Part shown: positions 1,350 through 55,128 of the stretch, one piece after another
Numbering within the stretch: position 1 is the first letter of the stretch
How the letters are laid out: every line of letters starts with the position of its first letter
Source: Kaiparowitsia implicata GSE-PSE-MK54-09C
Lineage (GTDB): Bacteria > Cyanobacteriota > Cyanobacteriia > Elainellales > Elainellaceae
Assembly: GCA_019359435.1 (NCBI GenBank)
Contig: JAHHHI010000092.1
Span: forward strand, 1-64,000
Length of the DNA: 64,000 bases
Direction: 5' to 3'
Position numbers and translations under genes: made by a program
Notes under the pieces: generated by a model
The model's database searches: none
What the model was told of the DNA's origin: nothing
Seen by the model: the letters and a program-made list of their open reading frames with translations, nothing else

Positions 1350-2912
1350 CTATGGATCAAGGACGGCGATCGCCCCATTGCGCCGCAAATCCCCAGCTCC
1401 TGTGAATACGCCAGGTTCTGTTTGCTGCACTGCGTGAACCCCGCCAAAGAACATATTTTGTTGCTCCCAGGCCATCCACTGCTGATCAAAGGGGAATTCT
1501 GCCTGCTCTAGCGGCGGCAGGGACAACCCTGGTTCTAGGTTAAAGACACCGTTTTCCCAATGGACTCTGGGGCTGGCGACTGCATCTCTCACAGGCATAT
1601 GAAAATCGATGAGGTTACTGATGACCTGGAGGATTGCGGTGCGGATTCGGTTAGACCCGCCTGACCCAAGCACTAGCTCAGGTTTGCCGTGGCGCAGCAC
1701 CAACGTGGGAGCCATCATTGATGAGATGCGGACGTTTTCCGTCCATGCGGAGAAGCCACTGGGATGGAGATCTGCCTCACCCAGCATGTTGTTCATCATC
1801 ACACCGGTGCCGGGAATGGTGTAAGCAGAACCTTCACCGTTGGAGGTGGTGACGCTGGCGGCATTGCCATCGCTGTCGATGCCGCTGATGTGGGTGGTGC
1901 TGCCCCATTTGTTGGCGATCGCCTTCAACGGGTCTGCATAGGGTTGACAGTGGGTGTCGGCTAAAAAGTGTTCAGCCACGCCAGGCTGGTAGAGGCGAGC
2001 ATCATAGCCATCAGCACGAGCCAGATTGGTTTGCCGCATTACCTCTGCTAGCAAGGTGAGGTGGGTCGTGGAACCAAAGGTTACTGAAGACAGATCTATA
2101 CCCGACAGAAGTTTGAGCGCGAAGGCAATTAGCGTGCCGCCCGAGCTAGGTGGAGGGTTTGTGACCAGGGTGTGACCACGATAGTTAGTAAGGAGGGGCG
2201 ATCGCTCTATGACCTGATAGTGAGCTAGGTCATCCAAGGTGAGATAGCCCCCCTGAGCCTGACTGTCGCGAACGAGCTGCTGCGCCAGTTCACCCACATA
2301 AAACAGGCGATCGCCCTCTTCCACAAATTGCATTAGAGTATCGGCTAACGCCGGCATTCGCAGCCAGTCACCAGGTTGAAGGAGCCGACCATGAGGTGCT
2401 ACAATCTGGCGCATCTCTGGACAAGCCAGCAAAATTGGTTCCAGAATTCTGAAGCAGTAGGCTTGAAACGTCCCCACCGTAAATCCAGTTTTTGCTAACT
2501 GAATGGCCGGTTCAGCGACCAACGCGAAGGGCAGTCGTCCAAGTTGCTGATGCACCTGCGTCATTCCTTTGACAGTTCCAGGCACAGCAACAGACCCTAA
2601 CCCGATGTGAAATTCTTGAGTCGTTATGCCAAAATCAACCTCCACTGGGTAAAAGCTAACTTGGTCGGGCGATCGCCGTTGACGAGGTGTTTGGGTAAAA
2701 AAGTCAAACAGAATATTCTGCTGATTCGCTGTGTGCGCTAGCAAGAAGCCGCCGCCGCCCAGCGACGTGAGGGTAGGTTCAACCACACAGGCTGCCAGCA
2801 CTGCCGCCACGACAGCATCAAAAATATTTCCGCCCTGCCGCAGCATCTCTAGCCCCGCTTCAGCCGTACTGGGGTTACCAGCGGCGATCGCCCCGTGTAA
2901 TTTGGCAGCCAT
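1350..2912 (-). CDS. ggt: Gamma-glutamyltransferase (glutathione hydrolase)
   Basis: N-terminal nucleophile hydrolase that cleaves or transfers the gamma-glutamyl group of glutathione and related peptides. The family precursor self-cleaves before a threonine; here that is T339 in the motif TTHISGIDSDGNAASVT, followed by the substrate-binding GSGGSNRIRT near the C-terminus. Length 520 residues is normal for the short bacterial form. No signal peptide precedes the conserved GAIAAGNPSTAEAGLEML start, so the protein looks cytoplasmic, unlike the periplasmic E. coli enzyme. It is a single gene, convergent with glyQ; upstream lies a long spacer with a mobile-element copy. Confidence 0.94.
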   Translation of the reverse strand: MAAKLHGAIAAGNPSTAEAGLEMLRQGGNIFDAVVAAVLAACVVEPTLTSLGGGGFLLAHTANQQNILFDFFTQTPRQRRSPDQVSFYPVEVDFGITTQEFHIGLGSVAVPGTVKGMTQVHQQLGRLPFALVAEPAIQLAKTGFTVGTFQAYCFRILEPILLACPEMRQIVAPHGRLLQPGDWLRMPALADTLMQFVEEGDRLFYVGELAQQLVRDSQAQGGYLTLDDLAHYQVIERSPLLTNYRGHTLVTNPPPSSGGTLIAFALKLLSGIDLSSVTFGSTTHLTLLAEVMRQTNLARADGYDARLYQPGVAEHFLADTHCQPYADPLKAIANKWGSTTHISGIDSDGNAASVTTSNGEGSAYTIPGTGVMMNNMLGEADLHPSGFSAWTENVRISSMMAPTLVLRHGKPELVLGSGGSNRIRTAILQVISNLIDFHMPVRDAVASPRVHWENGVFNLEPGLSLPPLEQAEFPFDQQWMAWEQQNMFFGGVHAVQQTEPGVFTGAGDLRRNGAIAVLDP

Positions 2913-3097: not shown

Positions 3098-3231
3098 TGC
3101 TTAACGTCAGTTCGGGTTAAGAGGGTTTTGGGGCATCGCGCGACGCGCGATGCCCCAAAACCCTTAATGTGCCGTGCGCGACGCGCACGGCACATTAAGG
3201 GTTTGAGCTTATCCCGAACTCAGGTTGCTTA
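3098..3231 (+). mobile_element. Full copy of 122-bp hairpin MITE, family A, with 6-bp target duplication
   Basis: The element spans 3104-3225 and is flanked on both sides by the direct repeat TGCTTA (3098-3103 and 3226-3231). Its ends are imperfect inverted repeats, ACGTCAGTTCGGGTTAAG and the inverse of ACCTGAGTTCGGGATAAG. Inside are two long perfect hairpins that share the bases CCC at their junction, each capped by a GAC loop. It has no coding capacity, so it would need a transposase supplied in trans. A second full copy in opposite orientation is at 36950-37071. Confidence 0.85.
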
Positions 3232-3269: not shown

Positions 3270-3523
3270 GCGGCCAAGGACGATCAAAGGGGTGAGTTCA
3301 TGCATTAGATGGGTTTATATACTTAGCGGTGTTTGACGGTGAAGTTTTATGACATAAGGGCTGTGTATGTTGATACACTTAGGTCTGGAATTTGATTCTG
3401 CCGTTGTGTGGAATTAAGTAGCCCCCTGCTGCATTGGGAACGCGCAGAGCGGGTTTCTTTCAACTACTTAAAGAAACGACGACTATAAGTTTAGGTAAGC
3501 TGGCCTCGCGGCCAGTTTTTTTT
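3270..3523 (+). ncRNA. Candidate small RNA ending in an orphan intrinsic terminator
   Basis: The plus-strand stem CTGGCC-TCGC-GGCCAG (3500-3515) is followed by eight T residues (3516-3523), a textbook Rho-independent terminator. No plus-strand gene lies between glyQ and this site. The preceding bases can fold: GTGTAT/ATACAC near 3365, and a larger stem closed by AAGTAG (about 3416) and CTACTT (about 3464) enclosing CCCCTGCTGC and GCAGAGCGGG. This points to a short structured transcript, but the 5' end is only guessed and no known RNA family was recognised. Confidence 0.4.
3500..3523 (+). terminator. Rho-independent terminator without an upstream gene
   Basis: Six-base-pair GC-rich stem with a 4-base loop and a run of eight T on the plus strand. 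There is no annotated plus-strand gene for more than 2 kb upstream. Confidence 0.75.
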
Positions 3524-3727: not shown

Positions 3728-4924
3728 TTAGTGAGAGTGCCCGTGATGATGACCGTGGTCATGACCCGAGCTGTGCCCGTGATCGTGGCTATGGCCATGC
3801 CCATGATGCTCTGCATAGTGCTGAGCTTGGGCGATCGCCAACTGCGGGTTCACCACTAAAGCATCTTCTTCTAAAAGTGCGGCAACATGCTGTTCAGCCC
3901 AGGTCGCAGCCATCTTCAAAAATTCAGGATGGTCATTGACGCACGGCATCTGCACATACGTCACATGGGGATGCTTGCGACGTAGCCCTTGGATGATGTG
4001 ATCTACATCCAATAGCGTTTCGTGATTTTCAGTGGCAAAGCCAATGGGCATAAACACCAGCGCCGTGGCTCCCAAATCAATTAGGTTTTTGGCAGCTAGG
4101 TCAGCATTGGGCTGCGTCCAATCAATCAATGGGGTTTGATGGTTGAGCCAGCCGACAGAAATCAGTGGATAGCGATTGATGAGCCGCTCTCGTACCCGCT
4201 CATAGAGCGCTTGGCTTTCATCAATGCCAGAGGTAAATCCTTTAGCCTTGTGGGGGCAGCCATGGTTCATCAGCACGATGCCCGTTTGAGAGGGCAGGTG
4301 CGCCACTGCTAAATCCTGGCGGATTTTGGTTTCTACCATCTTTGCCATTAGGGCAATGTAGTCGGGCTCATTGAAGAAGGAGGGAATGTAGCGCATGCCT
4401 TTGACCCAATGCTCGACCCCGTCAAATTGCTGCGCTAGCGCCTGGTTCACTTGCTCTACCGCGATGCCGCTGGTGAAGATAGAATCCACGACTAGCAGAG
4501 GATAGATAAGAAGTTTGTCAAACCCTTCCGCCTTGATTTGCGCTAGGACTTGATCTGGCAAATGGGGTGCACAAAAGTTAAATGCTTTGAATACTTTAAT
4601 CCGCTCTCCCCAATGCGCTTGGAGTTGGGTTTCAATTCCCGCTCGCTGCTGCTCGAAAATAGCGTTGTGGGGTGAAATAAAATGATCATGTTGGTGCTGC
4701 CATTCATGCAGGTCAAACACAGCAAGCAGCTTTGCCAGAGGGGGATAGAGCCAGAGAGGCACAGGCGCAAACTTAGCAGTGAGGAGGTTTAGCGCTTGTT
4801 CGTTATAGTTGGCGAAATCATCGTAGCTTTCAACTTCGCCATAGCCCATCAGTAATACAGCAACGCGATCGCCCACGGAAGCTGCCGTTACTGAGTCTTG
4901 CCGTTGGTCAGGGGTTGCAACCAT
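3728..4924 (-). CDS. Ferrochelatase-family protein with histidine-rich C-terminal tail
   Basis: Chelatase-fold protein of the HemH superfamily. It shows VAVLLMGYGEVES near the start, FTSGIAVEQVN in the middle, MNHGCPHKAKGFTSG, and GFATENHETLLDVDH, which corresponds to the conserved glutamate region of ferrochelatases. The last 25 or so residues are almost all His, Gly, Ser and Asp, a likely Ni/Co/Zn/Cu-binding tail. The longer frame begins at a TTG at 5059, but the ATG at 4924 is preceded by GAGAG at good spacing and gives the natural N-terminus MVATPDQRQ, 398 residues. It lacks the C-terminal chlorophyll-binding-like helix of the main cyanobacterial HemH, so it is probably a paralogue of unknown metal or tetrapyrrole specificity. 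It lies 135 bp downstream of the aldo/keto reductase gene, possibly co-transcribed. Confidence 0.75.
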   Translation of the reverse strand: MVATPDQRQDSVTAASVGDRVAVLLMGYGEVESYDDFANYNEQALNLLTAKFAPVPLWLYPPLAKLLAVFDLHEWQHQHDHFISPHNAIFEQQRAGIETQLQAHWGERIKVFKAFNFCAPHLPDQVLAQIKAEGFDKLLIYPLLVVDSIFTSGIAVEQVNQALAQQFDGVEHWVKGMRYIPSFFNEPDYIALMAKMVETKIRQDLAVAHLPSQTGIVLMNHGCPHKAKGFTSGIDESQALYERVRERLINRYPLISVGWLNHQTPLIDWTQPNADLAAKNLIDLGATALVFMPIGFATENHETLLDVDHIIQGLRRKHPHVTYVQMPCVNDHPEFLKMAATWAEQHVAALLEEDALVVNPQLAIAQAQHYAEHHGHGHSHDHGHSSGHDHGHHHGHSH

Positions 4925-5059
4925 ATAAATAATGCTCTCGAAAAATTGCCTTGCTGATTTGTCGTGGTCTTGAATTACCAATCGTTTGACGCGTTTGCGC
5001 ACCTCTTTAGAGTAACATCCCCTCCAGGGGCAGGGCATGCACAATAGCAGACAATTCAA

Positions 5060-28215: not shown

Positions 28216-28298
28216 GCCTGAGTTCGGGATAAGCTCAAACCCTCAACGTGCCGTGCGCATCGCGCAGAGCCCCACAACCCTGTTACCCCAGACTAGGG
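28216..28298 (-). mobile_element. Decayed, internally deleted copy of family A element
   Basis: Begins GCCTGAGTTCGGGATAAGC, nearly identical to one end of the 122-bp element, continues into the first half of the hairpin (GTGCCGTGCGC) and then jumps to the far side of the second hairpin (ATCGCGCAGAGCCCC). Both palindromes have been lost by deletion across their centres. Confidence 0.65.
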
Positions 28299-28598
28299 GC
28301 TGTCATCAATTAGCCTCTGATATCTCAGAAATCAACGGTCACAGCCCTAGCCTGGTTTTTGGGTCGGGCGTGGCAACGCTCATAGCATCAGGCGTTTGGT
28401 TGGAATTGATAACATGCTCTAGCGGTAAACAAAAAAAGAGAAGGGCGATCGCCCTCCTCTGTATAGATTCTCCAGAATTAGCTGTATTTAGACCAAATCA
28501 GTCATATTGACTCACCCTTAGCGAGTTGCTGAAGCCTAGCTTTGCCGCTAGCTAAGGGATTGCTATCCAACATTGGACTCAGACATTGGACTCAGACA

Positions 28599-36703: not shown

Positions 36704-37116
36704 ATATCCATGACTTTAATTAAAAGGTTGCAGGATACGCACTGCCTGTGTGTCATGATTACAACTCCAATGTTTCTGTATTAAAAAGCACATTCAAGCC
36801 TCAGTAGACGGCTGAGAATGGATTTCGTGCTTGTTCGATTTTCCACAGCACTTGCCATGGCTCGACATTGGGAACAATGAATGAGGCATTCGTGAGCGAC
36901 AGAGTGATTAAACCTATCCCCCATGTCTATAGTTCAAGACCCCTATTCAACCTGAGTTCGGGATAAGCTCAAGCCCTTAATGTGCCGTGCGCGACGGGCA
37001 TGGCACATTAAGGGTTTTGGGGCATCGCGCGACGCGCGATGCCCCAAAACCCTCTTAACCCGAACTGACGTTATTCACCCACGTTTAAACCATCATCCGT
37101 TCAGAGGATCTCTCCG
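36704..37116. other. Spacer ahead of the CodB-type permease gene
   Basis: Holds the second full family A element (36950-37071), which ends 45 bases before the permease start and so likely interrupts or supplies its promoter region. No other feature was recognised. GAGG of a weak ribosome site follows the element. Confidence 0.6.
36944..37077 (-). mobile_element. Full copy of 122-bp hairpin MITE, family A, with 6-bp target duplication
   Basis: Inverse copy of the element at 3104-3225, spanning 36950-37071 and flanked by direct repeats TATTCA (36944-36949 and 37072-37077). One of its two palindromes has lost perfection (GCGCGACGGGCATGG), the other is intact. Both full copies have different 6-bp duplications, which fixes the element ends precisely. 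Confidence 0.85.
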
Positions 37117-54997: not shown

Positions 54998-55050
54998 ACG
55001 TCAGTTCGGGTTAAGAGGGTTTTGGGGCAACGTCCCAGGCTGTTGCCCCG
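54998..55050 (+). mobile_element. Truncated family A element
   Basis: Starts ACGTCAGTTCGGGTTAAGAG, identical to the left end of the full element, continues GGGTTTTGGGGCAAC...GTTGCCCC (a hairpin with a different stem) and then stops matching. The right half is missing. Confidence 0.65.
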
Positions 55051-55128
55051 CTGTCCCACCTTGAAACGCTGGCCGTGCACCCCTACAAAAAATATTGATG
55101 CTTGAATTCATTTGGATTCAGCAACACC

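Follow-up and report, generated by a model that had tools for sequence, protein, structure and literature searches.

The 122-bp element at positions 3104-3225 of the window (the whole stretch of 64,000 nucleotides that was analyzed, here also called the 64-kb window) is a MITE: it is short, lacks a transposase, possesses terminal inverted repeats, and occurs in high copy number with target duplications at dispersed sites. Its interior consists of two overlapping palindromes, and in four cyanobacterial genomes the arms of these palindromes were found to change together and their loops to invert. We consider it likely that the element is a non-autonomous member of the IS982 family whose palindromes are rewritten, and probably were also created, by template switching during replication.

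Structure of the 122-bp element

The initial annotation had described an element bounded by TGCTTA direct repeats at 3104-3225, and rereading of the window letters agreed with it to the single base. The element starts with ACGTCAGTTCGGGTTAAG and finishes with CTTATCCCGAACTCAGGT. The inverted ends, described earlier as imperfect, were indeed imperfect termini of 18 bp, and the two hairpins, said to have junction bases in common and GAC loops, overlapped on AAACCCT and carried GAC in both loops. The features of the element and of its further copies in the window are as follows.

3098-3103, left target-site duplication TGCTTA, read from the window letters
3104-3121, plus strand, left end ACGTCAGTTCGGGTTAAG, 18 of 18 bp shared with one terminus of the 979-bp IS982 elements
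3122-3164, hairpin H1, arms of 20 bp, loop GAC at 3142-3144
3158-3164, junction tract AAACCCT, part of the 3' arm of H1 and of the 5' arm of H2
3158-3204, hairpin H2, arms of 22 bp, loop GAC at 3180-3182
3208-3225, minus strand, right end, reading ACCTGAGTTCGGGATAAG on that strand, one base different from the other IS982 end
3226-3231, right target-site duplication TGCTTA
28216-28292, plus strand, decayed relic retaining the right end and some of the stem sequence
36950-37071, minus strand, second full copy, duplication TGAATA
54998-55051, plus strand, decayed relic with the left part only

The complement of the junction tract AAACCCT recurs at the outer foot of H1 and of H2. The centers of the hairpins lie at element bases 40 (H1) and 78 (H2), and the H2 loop, GAC in the copy at 3104-3225, is GTC in most copies. 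The 122 bp are made up of ends and hairpins only; a transposase gene is absent. Folding of the 134-base stretch as single-stranded DNA yielded -56.5 kcal/mol, compared with -21.8 ± 2.7 kcal/mol for shuffled sequences (z = -12.95). We agree with the initial annotation that this layout is unusual for a MITE, and comparison of copies additionally revealed the co-variation of the arms and the inversion of loops that are treated below. The element sits between a gamma-glutamyltranspeptidase gene (1350-2912, minus strand) and a ferrochelatase-like gene (3728-5059, minus strand). On the plus strand, positions 3497-3518 form a terminator-like stem that runs into a stretch of T.

Copy number and insertion sites

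The genome of the organism (6.72 Mb in 109 contigs) contained at least 40 full-length copies of 95-100% identity, several of them mutually identical at separate sites. The end pattern ACNNNAGTTCGGG occurred 264 times, compared with 23 occurrences of the reversed control. Given this number of copies and the excess of the end pattern, the element is not a product of chance. Sixty non-redundant copies were read, taken from individual loci and from 1.46 Mb of contig sequence of the same genome. The initial annotation had named a lack of duplications at other copies, or constant presence at one orthologous site, as arguments against a transposed element. Instead, the copies occupied many sites, and inspection of their flanks revealed exact duplications of 6-8 bp, at differing sites, for 42 of the 60. 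When left and right flanks were shuffled among copies, a mean of 1.5 and a maximum of 6 duplications were obtained. The first base of the duplications was T in 41 of 42 cases, and the last base was A in equally many.

One copy (L046) interrupts a dispersed repeat of ~113 bp. Its joined flanks aligned without gaps to uninterrupted repeats, which carry TCAATTA once. Within 1.46 Mb of the genome, this dispersed repeat was matched 52 times. The window itself holds one copy of it at 28293-28404 (CTAGGGGCTGTCATCAATTAGC...GTTTGGTTGGA), immediately 3' of the decayed 122-bp relic at 28216-28292. A third intergenic repeat is composed of a palindrome, AAACCGTGCTGCC...GGCAGCACGGTTT, and a subsequent GCAACAACGCGATCGC-like part (L041 674-909, C55:187507, and C64:19150); one copy of the 122-bp element was found inserted in it.

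Relationship to the IS982 family

The mobilizing family had been left open by the initial annotation. A check for insertion sequences with the same ends led to IS982-family copies in the same genome. Two elements of 979 bp (C1:383-1361 and C35:19239-20217) have the ends ACGTCAGTTCGGGTTAAG / ACGTGAGTTCGGGATAAG, and the 122-bp element is identical to them in 18 of 18 bp at one end and in 17 of 18 bp at the other. The transposase-like reading frame inside the 979-bp elements matched PF13612 and the NCBIfam model transpos_IS982 (NF033520; 149 and 213 bits at a cut-off of 130), each above its cut-off. Ends of the same kind were present in older IS982 copies of the genome on contigs C7 and C90. In the IS982 family, the ends start with AC in 57 of 69 members and the direct repeats are of variable length, amounting to 6 bp for ISNsp1 of Nostoc (PMC7335449). 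Both ends of the 122-bp element start with AC. When compared with the conserved IS982 positions AC(N)6T(N)5TT, the element displayed AC, T9, and T15; base 16 was A where T is expected. The element shares AC ends and variable direct repeats with IS982 insertion sequences but differs from these ~1-kb parents, which encode a DDE transposase, in lacking a transposase and in consisting mostly of two palindromes. A handful of IS982 copies stood against the 60 MITE copies read in the genome.

Intact frames were not found among the IS982 copies read in this genome, all of which contained stops or were cut off, and a search of two genomes of the same family (G013 and G003) failed to bring up an intact IS982 carrying these exact ends. 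Because every IS982 copy read was broken, it is from the shared ends that we deduce mobilization by IS982. Contigs C36 and C84 end inside IS982, as happens with repeats that cannot be assembled, and a working copy may therefore be absent from the assembly; an intact matching IS982 may lie hidden where contigs end. An intact IS982 of the more distant genome G085 (303-amino acid frame; L279 1192-2199 and L283) was considered as the matching parent and rejected. Its inner ends, ACGTGAGTTCGACGG, differ, so that it belongs to a subfamily sister to that with TTCGGG and is not the parent. In genome G114 (L280), GTTGTCCCCACGCTCGTGGGGGTGAGCCG repeats with spacers were observed to the right of an IS982 copy, apparently a CRISPR array that directly adjoins it.

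On these grounds, an IS982 transposase would recognize the ends of the MITE in trans. The MITE would then be inserted at T...A-type target sites 6-8 bp long, predominantly in intergenic regions, with duplication of the site.

Relatives in other cyanobacteria and deletion forms

Relatives were sampled from 117 related genomes, and 386 genomes of the phylum were searched with a covariance model under strict filters. Two of the 117, G013 (34 copies read) and G003 (32 copies read), which belong to other genera of the same family, contained many 122-bp copies. Their hairpin centers likewise lie at bases 40 and 78, and the letters of their stems differ. Beyond the organism's own genome, the covariance model search returned only G085 and 101-bp relatives. 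The one-contig genome G085 belongs to a different family; 31 two-hairpin copies, mostly of 145 bp, were read from it. Its stems bear no evident likeness to those of the other versions, and yet the plan is the same, with a tract GGGCTTT, the complement at the common junction, and the tract again. Two-hairpin versions are therefore known as 122-bp elements from three genera of one family and as 145-bp elements from another family.

IS982-type MITEs of 101 bp occur in other families (G037, G088, G114, G199, G434, and G243). They have the same ends as the 122-bp element and similar duplications but no double hairpin. These shorter MITEs were seen at loci L064, L066, L077, L080, L087, and L221-L226, with several copies each in some families. 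The outer right arm of H2 resembled the right interior of the 101-bp elements beyond the level of shuffled sequences (0, 1, and 0 of 300 shuffles reached the likeness). No significant similarity to the 101-bp elements was detected for the outer left arm of H1, and derivation of this arm from them was rejected for that reason. Thus, the model of an origin from a 101-bp-like element is half supported.

Shortened forms were also encountered. Mini forms of 46 bp comprise little beyond the two ends (L035 544-589, L037 572-617, L038 523-568, and L040 552-597), and some of them carry target duplications. Judged by their sequence, they appear to be deletions between the GGGTTT direct repeats that flank both hairpins. 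They may be either self-moving or deletions that arose in place within 122-bp copies. A form of 84 bp with fused hairpin tips (L036 594-677, duplication TAATCT) corresponds to a deletion between the two tips, both of which contain GCGCGACGCGC. Both forms are consistent with replication slippage at palindromes.

Covariation of hairpin arms and inversion of loops

Changes on one side of a stem were frequently matched by complementary changes on the other. Observed and expected numbers of complementary doubles were 28 and 0.66 for the organism's own genome, 33 and 1.7 for G013, 11 and 0.5 for G003, and 37 and 2.2 for G085; the expectation is that of independent mutation of the arms, and the observed numbers count copies rather than events and are inflated by shared ancestry. 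An alignment of 37 copies showed co-variation on both sides for 19 of 35 stem pairs as opposed to 0 of 15 pairs of the end repeats, and the stem signal was lost when the partners were slid by 1-3 columns. The end repeats, which are 86 bases apart, exhibited 0 complementary doubles and 100 single changes; they serve as a control for copying between neighbors and not for selection, because either end could be conserved independently.

Coordinated changes extended to three bases, one in each of the three occurrences of the junction tract. Three-way changes were observed at element bases 22/58/98, 20/60/96, and 24/56/100 (copies L046, L178, L184, and L186) and, in G085, at 29/67/111 (copies L248, L265, L270, L274, and L275). 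In six of the eight 3-base loops, no alternative was more frequent than the reverse complement. Flips that alter all three bases were GTT/AAC and TTT/AAA in G003 and TAC/GTA in G085, and in the latter genome every combination of orientations of the two loops was present. For several loop changes that involve a single base (GAC/GTC), point mutation is a possible explanation. None of these footprints, i.e. the complementary excess, the three-way changes, and the loop inversions, was found in the end repeats.

Template switching as the probable cause of the footprints

In yeast, template switching between short inverted repeats homogenized the arms and inverted the spacers (PMC8604942), and for RNA genes it has been put forward as a means by which hairpins are maintained (PMC8794818). 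For the MITE, the nascent strand would fold or switch onto the other arm during replication, copy it, and switch back. Such a switch would rewrite a mutated arm after its partner, giving rise to coordinated double and triple changes, and would sometimes invert the 3-base loop. We deduce that template switching caused the footprints and keeps the palindromes intact. It may also have made them, the probable starting point being a less elaborate element that resembled the 101-bp IS982-type MITEs.

Selection would be the classical explanation for stems of this kind: folded DNA would be needed for transposition or replication, and only palindromic source copies would spread. The two-hairpin layout is common to four genomes of two families despite their different stems, and stem divergence was slightly lower than that of the remainder of the element, both as selection would have it. 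We nevertheless regard it as fairly unlikely. Complementary doubles private to one copy were common (27 distinct ones in the organism's own genome, G013, and G003), and selection of source copies had little chance to act on these. A junction base belongs to both hairpins and has one pairing partner at any time, so that the three-way changes involve bases that are unable to pair simultaneously. Loop flips confer no gain in pairing. Three-way changes and loop flips thus point to copying over selection. Furthermore, the 46-bp and 84-bp deletion forms occur with duplications, and the 101-bp relatives with the same ends are numerous and do without a double hairpin. The hairpins appear dispensable for transposition.

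A more far-reaching idea assigns the working role to the palindromic interior itself. Its hairpins would stall or redirect replication and thereby drive the spread of the element, template switching would proofread the dispersed copies while the sequence of the stems was free to drift, and the arrangement would have arisen more than once in cyanobacteria. We offer this as speculation and think it unlikely to hold.

Conservation of the hairpins as RNA, be it as terminators or as structures that stabilize mRNA, was judged very unlikely. The stems are very stable and, as would suit such a role, none of the 33 copies on long contigs (1.46 Mb) fell within predicted reading frames of at least 120 codons, where 72% of random sites did, and 14 of the 33 lay between convergent genes, the expectation being 16% of intergenic sites (p = 4e-4); these placement figures are approximate, as genes were called by the simple rule of 120 codons or more. 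Avoidance of genes, however, is expected for any harmful insertion. No T run follows the stems, and the scan that was applied found neither a terminator at the element nor a promoter nearby. Comparison with Rfam brought all families out below threshold, with nothing near a gathering score. Lone stem changes led to G.T in 44 cases and to A.C in 42, and wobble was therefore not preferred as tolerance in an RNA would lead one to expect.

REP/BIME palindromes that depend on a REP-associated tyrosine transposase for their movement, or a single-strand element of the IS200/IS605 type, would agree with paired palindromes, intergenic sites, and high copy number but can hardly apply, as they are contradicted by the clean 6-8 bp target duplications and the terminal inverted repeats, neither of which IS200/IS605 and REP elements are known to make, and as the ends match an IS982-family DDE transposon.

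Comparison with known systems and implications

MITEs, including comparable ones derived from IS982, have been described before, and so has template switching. According to the part of its description considered here, MITECca01 of Cardinium, which stems from ISCca4 of the IS982 family, is likewise non-autonomous, of high copy number, and equipped with the ends of its parent; it differs in its length of ~240 bp and in residing in an endosymbiont, and that part of the text mentions no internal double hairpin (PMC9769881). The Nezha MITE (cited in PMC10969869) is also small, non-autonomous, and cyanobacterial. Homogenized arms and inverted spacers are shared with quasipalindromes that undergo template switching, as described for yeast, RNA genes, and Escherichia coli (PMC8604942, PMC8794818, and PMC7202029). 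Those cases concern single loci, whereas the present footprints run through an entire mobile family that is dispersed in several genomes. Searches of the openly licensed literature revealed neither a double-palindrome IS982 MITE nor a mobile family with footprints of template switching, which in itself does not prove novelty.

Co-varying stems are usually taken as proof of structural selection. For the MITE described here, a mutational process, probably template switching, explains them better, and three-way changes together with loop inversions are the tell-tale marks of such an origin. Covariation in intergenic palindromic repeats should thus not, on its own, be read as a sign of a functional RNA. 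Each of at least four cyanobacterial genomes carries dozens of copies, and the family therefore provides many natural replicates from which to measure the rate at which short palindromes are rewritten by template switching.
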